Assembly: GCA_015654525.1 (NCBI GenBank)
Contig: JAATGT010000153.1
Location: 1-40,881, forward strand
Length of the DNA: 40,881 nt
Direction: 5' to 3'
Source: Bacteroidales bacterium
Lineage (GTDB): Bacteria > Bacteroidota > Bacteroidia > Bacteroidales > Paludibacteraceae
Shown: positions 1 to 36,554 of the stretch, one piece after another
Numbering within the stretch: the stretch's first letter is position 1
Layout: each line of letters opens with the position of its first letter
The notes under the pieces: model-generated
Seen by the model: only the letters and a program-made list of their open reading frames with translations
What the model was told of the DNA's origin: nothing
Database searches by the model: none
Translations under genes and position numbers: made by a program

Positions 1-34
1 CCCCTAAATCCCCTAAAGGGAACTTTAAAATTAG

Positions 35-74
35 AAACTCCCCGATATACTGATGCATATCGGGGAGTTTTTTT
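35..74 (+). terminator. Rho-independent terminator
   Basis: A perfect 14-bp stem (35-48 with 57-70) around an 8-nt loop runs into a T-tract. It probably ends a plus-strand gene that lies left of the window. Confidence 0.8.
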
Positions 75-150
75 AAACTTTTATTGAATTCAAAACCATC
101 ACTCTCAATTCTCGATACATAAAGAATCAGACCGTACAGACAAAAAGAAA

Positions 151-261
151 ATTCTCCTCTGCCCATCATTGGCAAACAAGAAGTAAAACTAATTCTTCCA
201 GCCCCAGCTTGGGCAAGCAAGAAGTGAAACTGATTCTCCTCTCCCCAGCGTGGGTAAACAA
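151..261. repeat. 41-bp tandem repeat, about 2.7 copies
   Basis: Diverged units start at 151, 192 and 233, each opening with attct and carrying a core like gcccagc..tgggcaa followed by caagaagt. The 41-bp step is exact between the three starts. The third unit degenerates into an A-run. No coding or regulatory role is visible. Confidence 0.75.
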
Positions 262-687
262 AAAAAAAATTACCTAAGAGCAAATAATATCGGATGAGGT
301 TTATTTTATACAACAAAACAAATAAAAATTTAAATCAATTACAACTGCCCAACCTATTCTAAATATAAACTGTTTTAGAAACGACAAATATATTAAATCA
401 GCATTGTAAAACGTTTAAATTTTAAATTATGCCACTACTTAAACTAATAAGCCGGATAGGGCAAGGAGCCATGACCGGATTGGGAATGAATCGTAGCACC
501 AACAATTGGACAATGATTAAAGTAGCATACAATAAAAGCATAACAAACAAAACGGCAAATACACTTCATTTTAATTGCCTGCACGTCCGGAACGGAAGCA
601 GAGGAAATGGAATAGGAATGGGACATCAGAGCAGACTCGGAAAAATAAAATAAATAAGATAAAAACAGAGTGATTAAAATAAATTAT

Positions 688-10428: not shown

Positions 10429-10604
10429 ACTTTGATCCACAAACTTCACCCGTAGTTATTCACATACAACTCCTTTTAGCTTGTAAAGTATTAAAATTCA
10501 AAGAATCTTATATCAAGCTCACATTAAAATACATTCAAAACAGACACTCCTGTTCTGATATAGCTTACACACTTTTAGATATAGCCTCAACATATACAAA
10601 GAAT

Positions 10605-10995
10605 GCACTCACATCGACAAACTACGTTAAAATACATTCATATATTGCACTCATATTTATAAACAGAGCACTCACATTTACAGACTAAGTTAAAACATAT
10701 TCAGATATTACACTCACATTTACAAAGAGAGCACTCGCATTAATATATAAAGTTAAAACATTTATAAAGTAAGTACTCACATTTACAAACAAAGCACCTG
10801 CATTAACATATAAGGTTAAAACATATTCAAATATTGCACTCACATTTACAAAGAGAGCATTCACATTTACACAAAAGCTTAAAACATTTATAAAGTAGGC
10901 ACTCACATTTACAAACCAGACACTCACATTTATACAATAGCTTAAAACACACACTGAATTAGCACTCACATTTACAAAGTAAGCTCTCACAACTT
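10605..10995. repeat. Tandem array with 21-bp subunits and exact 63-bp higher-order period
   Basis: The core gcactcacatttacaaa recurs at 10605, 10647, 10668, 10710, 10731, 10773, 10794, 10836, 10857, 10899, 10920, 10962 and 10983. The spacing alternates strictly 42 and 21 bp. The intervening 21-bp slot carries a second core, gttaaaacat. The period is kept although the copies have diverged. The minus strand reads as seven-residue units such as LFVNVSA and YFINVLT, without any start or promoter that supports a gene. Confidence 0.9.
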
Positions 10996-26629: not shown

Positions 26630-28699
26630 ATGGAAGAAAACCAAAACATCCCGGAAGAAGTAATTCCAACCGTGGAAGAAACAGTAATCGAAGAAACACC
26701 AGTTGCAGCAGAAGTTATTGCTGAAGTAGAAGTTCCTGTAACCGAAGTTATCGAAGAAGCCCCATCTGCTAAAGTAAAAGCCCCTAAACCTGTACCTGCA
26801 GGTGATTTCGACTGGGATGCTTACGAAAAAGGAATCACCCTAAGCGACTCAGCTAAGGAAGATTTAGAAAAAATTTACGACAACACTTTGAACGCTATTA
26901 AAGATAAAGAAGTTGTTGAAGGAACTGTTATTTTGATCAACAAACGCGAAGTCGTTGTAAACGTTGGTTACAAATCAGACGGTGTTGTACCAATGAGCGA
27001 ATTCCGCTACAATCCGGATTTGGCAGTTGGCGACAAAGTAGAAGTTTATATCGAAAGCCAAGAAGATAAAAAAGGACAATTAATCCTTTCTCATAAACAA
27101 GCTCGTGCAACCCGCTCTTGGGATCGCGTAAACGCAGCATTGGAAACACAAGAAATTGTAAAAGGTTTCGTAAAATGCCGCACAAAGGGTGGTATGATTG
27201 TAGATGTATTCGGAATCGAAGCATTCTTACCAGGATCACAAATTGATGTGAAACCTATCCGCGACTACGATGTATTCGTGAATAAAACAATGGAATTCAA
27301 GGTTATCAAAATCAATCATGAATTCAAAAACGTTGTTGTTTCGCACAAAGCGCTTATCGAAGCAGAACTTGAATTACAGAAAAAAGAAATTATCGGTAAG
27401 CTTCAAAAAGGTCAGGTTCTTGAAGGAACCGTTAAGAACATCACTTCTTACGGTGTATTCATCGACCTTGGTGGCGTAGACGGTCTAATCCACATCACCG
27501 ACCTTTCATGGGGACGTGTTTCTCATCCTGAAGAAATTGTGGCTTTGGATCAAAAACTTAATGTTGTTATCCTTGACTTCGATGATGAGAAAAAACGTAT
27601 CGCTCTTGGCTTGAAACAACTTTCTGCTCATCCTTTGGATGCTTTGAGCGCCGAACTTAAAGTTGGTGACAAAGTAAAAGGTAAAGTAGTGGTTATGGCC
27701 GACTACGGTGCATTTGTTGAAATCGCTCAAGGTGTTGAAGGTTTAATCCACGTTTCGGAAATGAGCTGGTCACAACACTTACGTTCTGCTCAGGACTTCC
27801 TGAAGGTAGGCGACGAAGTAGAAACAGTTATCCTGACTCTGGATCGCGACGAACGCAAAATGTCTTTAGGTATCAAACAATTGAAATCTGATCCTTGGGA
27901 TAATATCGAAGAACGTTACGCTCTTGGAACAAAACATACAGCTAAAGTTCGCAACTTTACCAACTTTGGTGTATTTGTTGAAATCGAAGAAGGCGTTGAT
28001 GGTTTAATCCATATTTCTGATCTTTCATGGACTAAGAAAGTAAAACACCCATCTGAATTTACTCAAATAGGTGCCGAAATCGATGTTCAGGTATTGGAAA
28101 TCGATAAAGCTAATCGTCGTTTGAGCTTAGGCCACAAACAACTGGAAGAAAACCCTTGGGATGTATTAGAAACAATGTTTACTGTTGACAGCGTACACGA
28201 AGGTGTTATCATCGAAATGTTAGACAAAGGTTCTGTAATTTCATTACCTTACGGTGTTGAAGGTTTTGCTACTCCAAAACACTTGGTAAAAGAAGACGGA
28301 TCACAAGCTCAGGTTGATGAAAAATTAGCTTTCAAAGTAATTGAATTCAACAAAGACGCTAAACGCATCATTCTTTCTCACAGCCGCATCCACGAAGATG
28401 CAAAACGTGCTGAAAAAGGTGAAGCTCCTGTTTCAACAGAAGCTCCAGCTAAAAAAGCTGCACCAAAACGTGCTAAGAAAGAAGAAGCTCCGGTATCGTC
28501 AATTCCTGCTGCTGAAAAAACCACATTGGGTGACATTCAGTCATTGTCTGATTTGAAAGACAAAATGGATCAGGCTGCTGAAAAAGCTGCTAAAAAAGAA
28601 AAGAAAGCTAAAGCTGCTGCAGAAGCGCCAGTTGTTGAGACTCCTGTTACAGAAGCGCCTGCTGCAGAAGCTACACCAGAAGTGGCTCCTGAAGCATAA
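26630..28699 (+). CDS. rpsA: Ribosomal protein S1
   Basis: The 689-residue protein has six S1 (OB-fold) repeats between about residues 85 and 600. The best conserved are VLEGTVKNITSYGVFIDLGG then VDGLIHITDLSW, KGKVVVMADYGAFVEIAQG and AKVRNFTNFGVFVEIEEG. Ahead of them is an 80-residue tail rich in Glu, Val, Ala and Pro. After them is a tail of about 90 residues rich in Ala, Lys, Glu and Pro. S1 binds mRNA on the 30S subunit. The two tails make it longer than E. coli S1 (557 residues). It has its own consensus promoter and terminator. Confidence 0.96.
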   Translation: MEENQNIPEEVIPTVEETVIEETPVAAEVIAEVEVPVTEVIEEAPSAKVKAPKPVPAGDFDWDAYEKGITLSDSAKEDLEKIYDNTLNAIKDKEVVEGTVILINKREVVVNVGYKSDGVVPMSEFRYNPDLAVGDKVEVYIESQEDKKGQLILSHKQARATRSWDRVNAALETQEIVKGFVKCRTKGGMIVDVFGIEAFLPGSQIDVKPIRDYDVFVNKTMEFKVIKINHEFKNVVVSHKALIEAELELQKKEIIGKLQKGQVLEGTVKNITSYGVFIDLGGVDGLIHITDLSWGRVSHPEEIVALDQKLNVVILDFDDEKKRIALGLKQLSAHPLDALSAELKVGDKVKGKVVVMADYGAFVEIAQGVEGLIHVSEMSWSQHLRSAQDFLKVGDEVETVILTLDRDERKMSLGIKQLKSDPWDNIEERYALGTKHTAKVRNFTNFGVFVEIEEGVDGLIHISDLSWTKKVKHPSEFTQIGAEIDVQVLEIDKANRRLSLGHKQLEENPWDVLETMFTVDSVHEGVIIEMLDKGSVISLPYGVEGFATPKHLVKEDGSQAQVDEKLAFKVIEFNKDAKRIILSHSRIHEDAKRAEKGEAPVSTEAPAKKAAPKRAKKEEAPVSSIPAAEKTTLGDIQSLSDLKDKMDQAAEKAAKKEKKAKAAAEAPVVETPVTEAPAAEATPEVAPEA

Positions 28700-28724
28700 T
28701 TCTGATCTTTATTATAAGTCAAAG

Positions 28725-28760
28725 AATGGCTGTTCGAAAAATTCGGACAGCCATTTTTAT
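28725..28760 (+). terminator. Terminator of rpsA
   Basis: The stem aatggctgttcgaa (28725-28738) pairs with ttcggacagccatt (28742-28755) with one mismatch and runs into a T-rich tail. Confidence 0.85.
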
Positions 28761-29031
28761 TATTGCTTTTCTCTCCTCCTACCCGATCGACTTAAGACTT
28801 AAAGTAAAAATAAACTTTCGAAATAAGTTATTTTACATCATTAGATCTATTTGTCAGACAAGTCTGAATGATCCCATCACAGGCATGTTACATGCAGACT
28901 CAACATCCTGAATATTTTTCAAATTCTTGCAAGAAGTGACAAATTGAAGCTATCAACACCTATATCCTGACATAAAAAAACTTATTTTATTCATTTAGAA
29001 AATAATTTTTTCAAAAAAATTCAATAAATAT

Positions 29032-29061
29032 TTTGTAACTAGAAATATTTATTTAGATTTG
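29032..29061 (+). promoter_or_regulatory. Promoter reading through the palindromic array
   Basis: TTTG (29032-29035), an 18-nt spacer and TAGATTTG (29054-29061) form a good Bacteroidota promoter. Transcription from about 29068 would include all five 42-bp repeats in a leader of about 400 nt before the ATG at 29470. Confidence 0.7.
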
Positions 29062-29162
29062 CAGCGTAAAATACATCTAATAGATACTACGGAAGAAAAT
29101 AAATCGCAAATAACGCTCCGCTGTAGAGTCACGAATAAGAGATTTTTTAATCAATAAAACGT

Positions 29163-29372
29163 CGTACTAATACGAACGAGCTTTGCAGACCGAAAAACAT
29201 CAGTCGTACTAGTACGAACGAGCTTCGCAGAGTGGAAAACATCAATCGTACTAGTACGAACGAACTTTGCAGACTGAAAAACATTAGTCGTACTAGTACG
29301 AACGAGCTTCGCAGACCGAAAAACATCAATCGTACTAGTACGAACAGGCTTTGCAAGCAGAAAATGCTCGTT
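29163..29372. repeat. Five 42-bp repeats, each with a 14-bp palindrome
   Basis: Units start at exactly 29163, 29205, 29247, 29289 and 29331. Each carries TCGTACTAGTACGA (a perfect palindrome in units 2-5, one mismatch in unit 1), then acgagctt(t/c)gcaga and gaaaaacatca. The fifth unit degenerates. The next segment holds gctcgttcgtac (29366-29377), the exact reverse complement of the gtacgaacgagc found in the repeats. It sits in the probable 5' leader of the downstream gene. Confidence 0.9.
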
Positions 29373-29469
29373 CGTACCGATACAGCGCTTTACGAATGAT
29401 GCAGAACGAATATGTAATTTTAGATATTGACATATAATTTTTTATTTACCTTAAAATCGAAATTAGATC

Positions 29470-30213
29470 ATGTTGAAAATTGAAGATTCTCCATTAAGTC
29501 GTTTTCAAAACGAGGAACATTACAAGTATTACACCGATGTAGACGGTCTCATTACTATTTTTACCGCTGCCACATTACTAATTGTACCCGAGTACGAAAG
29601 TTTCAAAAAATCATACGCCGACGAAGGTGAAGCATTGAACTATGTGCGTAAGAGTACTTACACCAAAATGCTTCGAGAGGCAGATACAAAAATAAACAAT
29701 ACCTTCGATGGTATAGAAGATGCTGTAAATAGCGGACTAAACCACTATTCTCAACCAGTTAAAGAAGCCGCTGAACGCCTCAGAGTACTGCTGGACGCAA
29801 ATGGGAATATTAAAAGAAAAACCCAACAAAATAAATCTGGAGCTACCCTGAAACTGGTTACTGAACTAAAAGGATCAACCTACGCAACCGATGTAAATAC
29901 AGTCGGACTTAATGGATGGGTGGATAAACTGGATGCAGACTATAAAAATCATTATGCATTACAAACCAGCAAGCTCAACGAACAGGACGCCAGGACACAT
30001 CTGCGCATGAAAGTAGTCCGTACCGAAATAGACAGCGTGTACCGTCGAATTACCGAAAAAATAAATGCATTGATCATTGTAAACGGTGAAGCCCCTTACG
30101 TGGAATTTGTAAACAAGCTCAATCTACTTATTCATTCCTACGAGAACAGCTTATCATTACGTAAAGACAAAGATAAAGACGACAGCACGACAACAACTCC
30201 GGAAGTAAAATAA
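29470..30213 (+). CDS. Uncharacterised protein, probably DUF6261 family
   Basis: The 247-residue protein is largely helical and charged, with no signal peptide, no membrane segment and no recognisable catalytic motif. It opens with a segment like SPLSRFQNEEHYKYYTDVDG and has VPEYESFKKSYADEGEALNY, a central region of probable helices, and a hydrophilic tail (RKDKDKDDSTTTTPEVK). From memory this pattern (an early L.R.NEEH motif, about 250 residues, acidic or low-complexity tail) fits DUF6261, a family known mainly from Bacteroidota with no function assigned; I could not search to confirm it. The gene stands alone behind a palindromic 42-bp array and a consensus promoter, and before a terminator. 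Confidence 0.65.
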   Translation: MLKIEDSPLSRFQNEEHYKYYTDVDGLITIFTAATLLIVPEYESFKKSYADEGEALNYVRKSTYTKMLREADTKINNTFDGIEDAVNSGLNHYSQPVKEAAERLRVLLDANGNIKRKTQQNKSGATLKLVTELKGSTYATDVNTVGLNGWVDKLDADYKNHYALQTSKLNEQDARTHLRMKVVRTEIDSVYRRITEKINALIIVNGEAPYVEFVNKLNLLIHSYENSLSLRKDKDKDDSTTTTPEVK

Positions 30214-30235
30214 GAAGATAAGAATACCTGATAAT

Positions 30236-30271
30236 AAAAAACAGGCTACCCATTTCGGATAGCCTGTTTTT
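30236..30271. terminator. Bidirectional terminator between convergent genes
   Basis: The stem aaaaacaggcta (30236-30247) pairs with tagcctgttttt (30260-30271). It can end both the DUF6261-like gene and the minus-strand ribonuclease gene. Confidence 0.85.
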
Positions 30272-30281
30272 GAATTTATTG

Positions 30282-31856
30282 TTACGATATTTTTTCTATT
30301 TCTTCTTGTAGGTCAATTTCATTTCCCTTTTTGTCGTAGAATTTGTATTGCAAAAAGCCCAGCTTCTGAGCTGCTATCACTTTACATCCTCTACCGAATT
30401 TTCGTTTCCACTGCCACTTTATCGAGATTAAGCCTTTAGAGATATAGGCATCTACGTAAGGGTGAATATGCAATGTAAACTCTTTAATTAATAATTTATT
30501 TACCAGATAGTCAATTTTACTTTCCAGCTGATCGGTAAACAAGATCGATGGTTTTATTTTTCCATGTCCATAACAAGTCGGACAGGTTTCTTCAATATCA
30601 AAATGAATCACCGGACGAACACGTTGTCGCGTTATCTGCAATAACCCGAATTTACTCAAAGGCAGAATATTGTGCTTAGCTCTGTCATTAGCCATATTTT
30701 CACGCATTCTGTCAAATAATTTCTGACGGTTTTCTGTCTCGTGCATATCGATAAAATCGACCACAATAATACCTCCCATATCGCGTAAGCGAAGTTGACG
30801 GGCTATTTCATCGGCTGCAGCCAGATTCACATCCAGCGCGTTGTCTTCTTGTCCATTACCTGCTTTAGAGCGATTACCGCTGTTAACGTCGACTACATGC
30901 AAGGCTTCGGTGTGTTCAATTATCAGATAAGCGCCGTTTTTGAACGATACGGTTTTACCAAAGGCTGATTTTATTTGTTTGGTTATACCGAAACTATCGT
31001 AAATCGGAACTTCATCCTGATATAGCTTTACAATATCTTTCCGATCGGGTGCTATCAGATTTACGTAATCGCGCACTTCGGCAAACACTGCCTGATCGTT
31101 GATATGAATATGCTTAAAACTTGGGCTGAATAAATCTCTAATTATTCCTACCGTACGACCTAATTCTTCTAAAATAAGCGTAACTCCTTTTGTTTGTTGA
31201 GTTTTGGCTACAGCTTCTTCCCAGCGTTTTACCAAAATTTTCAACTCATTATCGAGTTCTGCTACTTTTTTTTCCTCAGCAACTGTTCTGACAATTACAC
31301 CAAAACCTTTTGGTTTAATGCTTTGAATCAATTGTTTGAGTCTTTGTCGTTCTTCCTCCGTTTTTATCTTTTGCGATACCGACACTTTATCGGCAAACGG
31401 AATCAAAACTAAAAACCGACCTGCTATGGATATTTCGGCAGTCAATCTTGGACCTTTGGTGGAGATAGGTTCTTTGGTAACTTGTACCAGGATTTCCTGT
31501 CCCGTTTTCAAAATGTCGTTAATCGAACCGTTTTTCTCAATTTCCGGTTGCAGCTTGGTTTTCTGAATAGCAGGCGTCTTTTTACGGTCGCTCAACGCCT
31601 GCGTTGTAAATTGTGTAAGGGTGTTGAAATTGGAACCTAAATCAAGATAATGTAGAAAAGCGTCTTTGTCGTAACCAACGTCCACAAAGGCTGCATTTAA
31701 ACCGGGCATTATTTTTTTTACCCTGCCTAAATAGATATTCCCCACGGCGAACTGTTCTTCTCGTCCTTCCTGGTTAAGTTCTACAAGGCGTTTGTCTTCG
31801 AGCAGCGCAATAGAAATTTCGGATGCGTTAACATCCACTACTAATTCGCTATTCAC
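30282..31856 (-). CDS. rng: Ribonuclease E/G family protein
   Basis: The protein, about 524 residues, has an N-terminal S1 domain interrupted by a sub-domain, as in RNase G (GNIYLGRVKKIMPGLNAAFVDVGYDKDAFLHY, here in pieces). It has the catalytic-core segments HVVDVNSGN and GGIIVVDFIDM with the metal-binding aspartates, and the zinc-link CPTCYGHG. It cuts single-stranded RNA for rRNA maturation and mRNA decay. The frame is open up to a TTG at 31892, but a hairpin with T-run covers that region. The family normally starts with SELVVDV, so the GTG at 31856 is preferred. It lies downstream of the HU and COX24-like genes, a gene order common in Bacteroidales. Confidence 0.9.
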   Translation of the reverse strand: MNSELVVDVNASEISIALLEDKRLVELNQEGREEQFAVGNIYLGRVKKIMPGLNAAFVDVGYDKDAFLHYLDLGSNFNTLTQFTTQALSDRKKTPAIQKTKLQPEIEKNGSINDILKTGQEILVQVTKEPISTKGPRLTAEISIAGRFLVLIPFADKVSVSQKIKTEEERQRLKQLIQSIKPKGFGVIVRTVAEEKKVAELDNELKILVKRWEEAVAKTQQTKGVTLILEELGRTVGIIRDLFSPSFKHIHINDQAVFAEVRDYVNLIAPDRKDIVKLYQDEVPIYDSFGITKQIKSAFGKTVSFKNGAYLIIEHTEALHVVDVNSGNRSKAGNGQEDNALDVNLAAADEIARQLRLRDMGGIIVVDFIDMHETENRQKLFDRMRENMANDRAKHNILPLSKFGLLQITRQRVRPVIHFDIEETCPTCYGHGKIKPSILFTDQLESKIDYLVNKLLIKEFTLHIHPYVDAYISKGLISIKWQWKRKFGRGCKVIAAQKLGFLQYKFYDKKGNEIDLQEEIEKIS

Positions 31857-31894
31857 TTCTTTTGATTTTGATTGAGTTGTTTTTATAAACAAAA

Positions 31895-35339: not shown

Positions 35340-36176
35340 CTATTTTAGTTGCTTTTCTCGTCTGATTCTTGCAATAATATTTTGTGCCTTTTTTATTTCT
35401 TTCTGCAGTTTATCTACATCTTTTTTTACAATCCACAAATGGTATGTCGCAGCAATGGCTTTTTTGTCTCCATCCGGCAAGTAATACACATATGATTTTT
35501 TCCCGTGCAACGTAACTTTAATTCGCAGGCCCGTATTCTGAGCTATAAATGCAGCGACTCCTTTATCCGCTTCATTTTTAAATGTCAGCGTTTCCCAATG
35601 TGAACCAGCATCATTAAAACTGTGATAAGCCGGATTTGAAACTGAAAGTGTATCAGTATGAGCAAATAAATCATTAACTGACACTTCCAATGAAGTATGT
35701 TCTATTTTCCCCCCACAATAATTGCTTATCATATAAAAATCGGCATTCTCATCGACATAGGTTTTTAGATAAGTCCGAGTTACATTACTTTCTGTTAGCT
35801 GCGTTTTATAAATAAAGTTGCCCACTTCCTGATATTTTTTATCCTTTTCAAACCGAAAATTCTTTTGAATAGAATCAGCTTCATGCTGTTTAACCGGTAA
35901 AATGCTATCGCAATAAGCTAAGTTACGGGTGCTTTCGCGACGCGCTATGGTGTCCGCTAGCGCAGCTGCTATACGCCGTTTATCGACTAGCCTTGGGAAC
36001 AAAATATGTATACTGTCAATTTGTATTTTGGCTGCATTCAGTGAGTTTTGATTAATAAGAGTTTCAATACGTTTAAGCCTCTCATCAGCCAGTTTCTCCT
36101 GCTTATGGCGAGAATCGCAAGAAACCAAAAGTACCAAAACCAATAATAGTATGGGATTTCGAATAATACCTTTCAT
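35340..36176 (-). CDS. Lipoprotein of unknown function
   Basis: The 278-residue protein has a lipoprotein signal peptide with lipobox LVSC at about residues 17-20 (NPILLLVLVLLVSCDS). A charged coiled-coil segment follows (LADERLKRIETLINQNSLNAAKIQIDS in part), then a beta-rich middle part (YMISNYCGGKIEH, LHGKKSYVYYLPDGDKK) and a helical tail rich in Lys and Arg. I do not recognise a family with certainty; similar lipoproteins occur in Bacteroidales. It probably sits in the outer or inner membrane facing the periplasm. It stands alone on the minus strand. Confidence 0.75.
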   Translation of the reverse strand: MKGIIRNPILLLVLVLLVSCDSRHKQEKLADERLKRIETLINQNSLNAAKIQIDSIHILFPRLVDKRRIAAALADTIARRESTRNLAYCDSILPVKQHEADSIQKNFRFEKDKKYQEVGNFIYKTQLTESNVTRTYLKTYVDENADFYMISNYCGGKIEHTSLEVSVNDLFAHTDTLSVSNPAYHSFNDAGSHWETLTFKNEADKGVAAFIAQNTGLRIKVTLHGKKSYVYYLPDGDKKAIAATYHLWIVKKDVDKLQKEIKKAQNIIARIRREKQLK

Positions 36177-36323: not shown

Positions 36324-36554
36324 AACTTGTTCCAAAATCAGGGCATTTGTTCTAAACAATATTCCATTTCTTTGAAACAATGCCCTATTTCTTCTAAATA
36401 ATGCTCCATTTCTTTGAAATAATACTCCGTTTCTTTGAAACAATGTTCCGTTCCTTTGAACAAATGCTCTATTTCTTCTAAATAATACTCCATTTCTTTG
36501 AAACAATACAGCATTTCTTTGAAAAGATGAACCATTTTTTGCAAAAAACAATGC
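36324..36554. repeat. Eleven tandem units of exactly 21 bp
   Basis: Units start every 21 bp from 36324 to 36534 (36345, 36366, 36387 and so on) without a single slip. The main form is like atttctttgaaacaatgctc; a second form has cttctaaataat instead of ctttgaaacaat. The second form recurs at 36387 and 36471, 84 bp (four units) apart, hinting at a higher-order period. On the minus strand two reading frames stay open and give heptads such as FQRNGVL and FKEMEYY. Confidence 0.9.

Follow-up and report, generated by a model that had tools for sequence, protein, structure and literature searches.

The F plasmid centromere sopC (parS F), the site of ParB F (SopB), is a tandem repeat of units about 43 bp long in which an inverted repeat serves as protein site. 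It is one sequence on one plasmid, served by the ParB protein and a ParA partner. In REP/BIME elements with their RAYT (Y1) transposases, palindromes go together with a gene family, differ from gene to gene, and also occur in copies away from the gene. In the type III toxin-antitoxin systems (toxIN, cptIN, tenpIN), tandem repeats lie 5' of a gene under one promoter, and the repeat lengths in part of table 3 run from 34 to 55 (PMC6315513).

The tandem arrays analyzed here, which accompany genes of the DUF6261 family, match sopC in layout only; they occur on chromosomes in many copies whose palindromes differ. Neither a ParA nor a ParB domain was found in the DUF6261 gene of the window (the whole 40,881-nt stretch of DNA that was analyzed), in its two neighbors (S1-domain protein and RNase G), or in the ten other window ORFs scanned. 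As with REP/RAYT, the DUF6261 palindromes are gene-linked, differ from gene to gene, and have gene-less copies elsewhere, but no Y1/HUH domain was matched in the DUF6261 protein, and its arrays keep a period of 41/42 bp. Tandem repeats and a promoter-like site stand in the type III order in the window; unlike in type III systems, there is no terminator-like site between array and gene, no RNA signature, and no match to a ToxN/CptN/TenpN-type endoribonuclease. The protein model is all-helical, and the units measure 41/42 bp instead of showing the 34–55 spread of the cited part of the table. On these comparisons, none of the known systems considered appears to include the DUF6261 loci, with sopC the nearest in layout.

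In the window, the DUF6261 gene lies between an ORF for an S1-domain protein with six S1 domains, rpsA (26630–28699), and RNase G (RNase E/G; 30282–31892, minus strand). The gene occupies 29470–30213 on the plus strand and encodes 247 aa. Its placement in DUF6261 was borne out by a match to PF19775 over profile positions 1–154 of 154 (E 1.5e-29; 103.4 bits against a cut-off of 27). Tandem Repeats Finder returned an array with a period of 42 bp, 4.6 copies, and 0% indels at 29161–29355 (plus strand). By motif scan, a palindrome with one mismatch, TCGTACTAATACGA, was located on the plus strand at 29162–29175, followed by four exact copies of TCGTACTAGTACGA at 29204–29217, 29246–29259, 29288–29301, and 29330–29343. 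A degenerate sixth palindrome, TCGTACCGATACAG, with 9/14 letters, was recognized by eye in the 42-bp register at 29372–29385 (plus strand), in the last partial unit. The original prediction of five palindromes at 42 bp was therefore right about the steps, which are exact, but the first palindrome carries a mismatch and a degenerate sixth is in register. Allowing up to three mismatches, TCGTACTAGTACGA had 5 matches in the window, a number never reached in 100 shuffles (mean 0.69).

A promoter-like site, TTTG-N18-TAGATTTG, of the Bacteroidota type, was matched at 29032–29061 on the plus strand, about 400 nt 5' of the DUF6261 start codon. The match that had been described as a consensus promoter is there, but the window has no excess of such matches over chance (5 versus 2.7 expected, with 11/100 shuffles reaching 5). 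Across the family, TAnnTTTG was enriched 5' of the array (25/50 arrays versus 6.9 expected). It also occurred between array and gene in 9/50 arrays (3.6 expected), which means that the promoter does not always stand in the same place. The sole terminator-like site in 28690–30300 is the hairpin after rpsA at 28722–28758 (plus strand), which lies 5' of the array; a relative without the module has the same hairpin, and it marks the left module border. The hairpin between the DUF6261 gene and RNase G (30237–30271, no strand assigned) had been read as the gene's own terminator. It belongs to RNase G and not to the module, because a hairpin of the same kind stands at the RNase G end in a relative lacking the module and because it is absent from the terminator scan list. 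From the empty-site comparison, the module would extend over about 1.48 kb between the two hairpins (28761–30236, plus strand), with approximate ends.

Further loci were collected from the same family (28 loci, the gene being found in 18/61 genomes) and from named genomes (27 loci from Paludibacter, Mariniphaga, other Bacteroidota, Prevotella oulorum, Capnocytophaga, plus two Fibrobacterota records). Wider sampling covered the order (47/393 genomes), the phylum (12/394), and a second family (24/100), plus 60 stretches taken by place. Five loci with less than 250 bp upstream were dropped from the early set. From the set of 188 upstream regions, 13 loci were dropped for having less than 250 bp upstream or a protein call below 180 aa, and L074 was dropped because a run of N fills the place of its array. 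Upstream regions identical to each other entered the counts a single time, and L058, L084, and L096 had no gene call. No period was imposed in the Tandem Repeats Finder and top-lag counts.

The window's genome contained 21 DUF6261 matches, and the upstream DNA of 20 was read. Most of these regions had a visible tandem array, nearly every one with its own unit. Tandem Repeats Finder gave 41/42 bp or a multiple in 17/20, and the top autocorrelation lag was 41, 42, 82, or 84 in 19/20; the one region that differed belongs to L014, whose contig offers about 300 bp before the gene. The original prediction had proposed looking for arrays upstream of homologues, and they were found there: in 165 of the 188 usable upstream regions, the strongest lag was 41–43 (114 regions) or 81–84 (51 regions), compared with 14/126 in the downstream control of 520 bp after the gene (10 at 41–43, 4 at 81–84). 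Within 600 bp upstream, the best Tandem Repeats Finder array measured 41/42 bp or a multiple in 132/188 regions, the remainder giving 122 bp in 2, other periods in 5, and no array in 49. Control blocks from the same loci showed 41/42 bp or a multiple in 4/447 cases, and the DNA upstream of other ORFs (at least 150 aa) in 2/105. With the 122-bp pair included, the share was 17/20 in the window's genome and 18/22, 16/21, 41/66, and 42/59 in the later sets.

The array in the leader of the DUF6261 gene was thus confirmed as real and not a local curiosity; it is not accidental and belongs with the DUF6261 gene family. Both records named Candidatus Fibrimonas and Candidatus Fibrimonadaceae (metagenome bins of the phylum Fibrobacterota) carried arrays, the Capnocytophaga copies gave a period of 43 in 2/3 cases, and the divergent L020 and L022, in which the NALxxVNGE motif is missing, also had arrays. 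A top lag of 41–43 or 81–84 was absent from 23/188 upstream regions, and the divergent DUF6261 gene L056 had a 42-bp array about 150 bp 3' of its stop codon, not upstream. The claim that the array is locked to a single gene held as far as the association with DUF6261 is concerned, but window-type arrays also occur elsewhere without the gene, and the palindrome varies by gene. The original interpretation was, on the whole, partly supported. In 51/188 regions, 81–84 bp outscored 41/42 bp, which may reflect a higher-order, eight-turn repeat of alternate units.

Among the 50 arrays preselected for a period of 40–43, 202 of 207 steps measured 41 bp (106) or 42 bp (96), and several arrays mixed both. 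A larger set took in every region whose lag score at 41 or 42 was at least 0.62 (156 of 188); here, 583/640 spacings were 41 or 42, a count that is not independent of this selection. Four turns of DNA at 10.4 bp make 41.6 bp. The argument from four helical turns, already put forward in the original prediction, gained strength because arrays of unrelated sequence retain 41 or 42 bp. Dyad arms of at least 6 were present in 83/156 arrays, compared with about 14 expected from mononucleotide shuffles. The dyad was significant on its own in only 23/50 arrays of the smaller set and 60/156 of the larger one (p 0.05 in the latter), and it is therefore not established in each array. In the arrays with arms of at least 6, conservation was 87.5% in the arms versus 77.7% in the rest. 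Compensatory changes within arrays were not above chance (39 versus 34.6 ± 4.8), which supports neither DNA nor RNA. The array L005 had CGTAC and GTACG fixed in 7/7 units around a free dinucleotide. Such a fixed center is not the rule, since the innermost pairs paired less often than the outer ones (237/363 versus 2485/3039 cells).

For most gene pairs compared, the units look unrelated. In 1176 non-independent pairs, mean unit similarity was 0.17–0.19 at a protein identity below 50%, near the shuffle level of 0.16, and reached 0.23 at 50–60%, 0.30 at 60–70%, and 0.43 above 70%. Four loci (L007, L063, L067, and L069) had a linker close to GACCCCTCGGC in common and a different palindrome. The pair L005 and L006 comes from one genome, with 93% identical proteins and similar promoter DNA and linkers. 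Their palindromes differ in nearly all units, one array having CGTACnnGTACG and the other ATCCnnGGAT, and L006 retains one palindrome of the first kind (CGTACnnGTACG) at the start of its array. The letters of the palindrome are consequently not simply set by the protein. What is conserved is the period and, in many arrays, the dyad symmetry, with varying letters.

Pfam assigns no function to DUF6261 (PF19775), and in the parts of the literature covered by our search the family appeared in one paper, as an entry in a table of mutations. That search, which covered a minority of subscription papers and no bioRxiv preprints, returned nothing on DUF6261-linked arrays. The AlphaFold2 model of the protein was all-helical (pLDDT 90.5, pTM 0.60), with one helix of 58 residues, and the two protein halves aligned as profiles (P 1.6e-5, probability 79%). 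This hints at an internal duplication, although helical proteins can mislead such a profile test; two alike halves would suit a dyad site. R75, D72, R184, and D76 were strongly conserved in 189 aligned sequences, and at two of these positions the window copy differs, with I75 in place of R (96%) and N76 in place of D (88%). The predicted pI was below 7 in 43/49 proteins. The NALxxVNGE motif was not read as a catalytic site because the divergent copies without it (L020, L022) have arrays. A Pfam scan of the protein recognized DUF6261 only and no DNA-binding domain, Foldseek gave no PDB or viral match at E ≤ 0.001 among the 50 best of 388 and 430, no sequence relatives were found in the PDB, and the matches in NCBIfam and PADLOC were weak and far below any cut-off.

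The module was missing at the window's place in all three relatives showing both flanks; RNase G was not in view at six other relative loci inspected. In the relative G001, about 30 bp separate the hairpin of rpsA from that of RNase G, compared with 1.48 kb in the window, and two more relatives (L235, and L236 with RNase G identified by eye) have other DNA, a few hundred bp long, between the flanks. In L235, the rpsA–RNase G gap is occupied not by the module but by short repeats, seen by eye and about 11 bp long (CTTTCAAACCT...), and this intergenic place may therefore be a hotspot for inserts. L005 and L006 have promoter, array linkers, gene, and hairpin in common and nothing beyond within 3.5 kb. 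One of the eight genomes fully counted, a single contig of 4.3 Mb, contained as many as 38 DUF6261 matches spread throughout.

Gene-less copies were sought for two array types only. Window-type arrays were found on C312, C19, C256, and C5, contigs without a DUF6261 match, with the best pieces 76–87% identical; the array on C256 is near the contig end. On C250, a copy of the L012 type had two palindromes 41 bp apart, counted by eye. Such gene-less arrays may be mere copies and not independent sites, because the linkers are also common to them. The one on C256 (L027, positions 1–270, minus strand) runs into a terminator-like hairpin and T run (ACGAAATTAAACTTCGTTTTTTT, by eye). None of 38 candidate stretches was confirmed as a viral contig, and a tblastn search of 72,556 plasmid records gave no relative of the family member L059. 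A DUF6261-like ORF of 309 aa (L242) is present in MT837725.1, an unverified, unannotated 6.3-kb phage record from human feces. No 41/42 array was found within the 3.4 kb of this record that were examined, and the record may be bacterial DNA.

Whether the arrays act as DNA or RNA was judged from their changing letters, as an RNA hairpin should tolerate changes leaving G-U more often than changes leaving A-C. Among the 83 arrays whose arms measured at least 6, 124 G-U and 111 A-C were counted, which is the ratio of the unpaired background (737:666; p 0.95), and the 50-array set gave 29 and 21 with a background of 268 to 187. The sense strand was the more stable one in 52/156 arrays, compared with 62/154 in control DNA before the arrays, so that these counts show its lack of advantage and nothing further, and Rfam returned only one chance miRNA match, below the gathering score. 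The suggestion that the palindromes pair with each other as RNA received no support from the G-U and strand counts, and an RNA hairpin array was rejected as the main reading on the G-U/A-C counts, the strand folding energies, and Rfam. Action as RNA, with the leader repeats either bound by DUF6261 or paired from unit to unit as in type III toxin-antitoxin RNAs or RNA autoregulators, would agree with the order of promoter-like site, repeats, and gene in 25/50 loci, with the good folding of the window array as RNA (z −6.4), and with a unit length within the 34 to 55 of type III repeats in the part of table 3 consulted (PMC6315513). We nevertheless consider it quite unlikely, given that folding of the window array is better for the antisense strand (z −8.7), that the sense strand is without advantage and G-U is not favored over A-C, that the window has no terminator-like site between array and gene, that the protein matches no known ribonuclease family, and that type III repeat lengths vary where DUF6261 units hardly do. 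An RNA repeat would have no clear reason for 41/42 bp, whereas DNA at about 10.4 bp per turn would have one. The period is kept and the RNA tests were negative; helical phasing of DNA over four turns fits best, and the array probably acts at the DNA level.

DNA arrays might also be self-spreading intergenic repeats of the REP/BIME or MITE kind, read by another host protein or mobility function, with DUF6261 as cargo or helper. This would account for the gene-less copies on C312, C19, C256, C5, and C250, the absence of the module from three relatives, the likeness of L005 and L006 ending with the module (3.5 kb), palindromes that change where the protein hardly does, and up to 38 DUF6261 matches per genome (eight counted). 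A free repeat, however, would not hold one period before one gene family in unrelated arrays, no Y1 (HUH) transposase or mobility match was obtained in the DUF6261 proteins scanned, and the gene-less copies come from a search with only two array types; we regard this explanation as unlikely. Functionless tandem repeats arising from replication slippage are a very unlikely explanation. The window does have two other tandem arrays (10590–10991 and 36344–36548), so its genome tolerates repeats, but one period prevails (132/188 versus 4/447), the dyads exceed those of shuffles, and the arrays occur in two phyla. As a general account, slippage fails on the period counts and the dyad excess.

The best reading is that DUF6261 or a partner binds the phased palindrome array as DNA. 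The association with the gene, the period, the dyad excess, the negative RNA tests, the presence and absence of the module at one place, the gene-less arrays, and the all-helical protein model were observed; action at the DNA level, binding by DUF6261, and an effect of this binding on the gene are inferred. Each DUF6261 gene would then be a lone-gene module with a palindromic-site array of its own in the leader. Acting as double-stranded DNA, the array would present dyads four turns apart on one helix face, and these phased dyads could carry a cooperative nucleoprotein complex, most simply of the DUF6261 protein itself. The likely outcome would be autoregulation by a roadblock or silencing just 3' of the promoter, and gene-less array copies would be further binding sites. 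The full reading, in which DUF6261 itself binds the array and regulates its own gene, is held tentatively, as falling a little short of probable. Against a simple DNA operator stand the L005/L006 pair, the mostly acidic proteins, the lack of a compensatory excess, the weaker central pairing, and the lack of a match to a known DNA-binding fold.

The comparison points to an apparently undescribed gene-plus-DNA-array module in which the motif letters change and the spacing stays. A bolder and rather doubtful extension is that DUF6261 modules form an undescribed class of chromosomal address elements, in which a two-half helical protein would read dyad symmetry and four-turn phasing instead of a fixed sequence. 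Under the same doubtful extension, up to 38 copies per genome, each with its own palindrome, would have spread as a 1.3–1.5 kb module and seeded the gene-less arrays. With its own DNA array, DUF6261, so far a family without a known function, gains its first testable anchor. Because such an array is characterized less by its sequence than by its period and symmetry, ordinary motif searches would miss it, and if the protein binds such arrays, DNA would be marked in a way new to biology. With so many differently marked copies in a genome, and with L005/L006 as an example of a natural swap, the rule of recognition can be tested directly.

Of the two other tandem arrays of the window, that at 10590–10991 has periods of 21, 63, and 126 bp (CACTCACATTTACAAA...) and is intergenic, before a thioredoxin-like ORF. 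The one at 36344–36548, with periods of 21, 42, and 63 bp (AAACAATACTCCATTTCTTTG), lies upstream of a minus-strand ORF (35340–36176) of 278 aa, which had no Pfam match and, by eye, a lipoprotein-like start.
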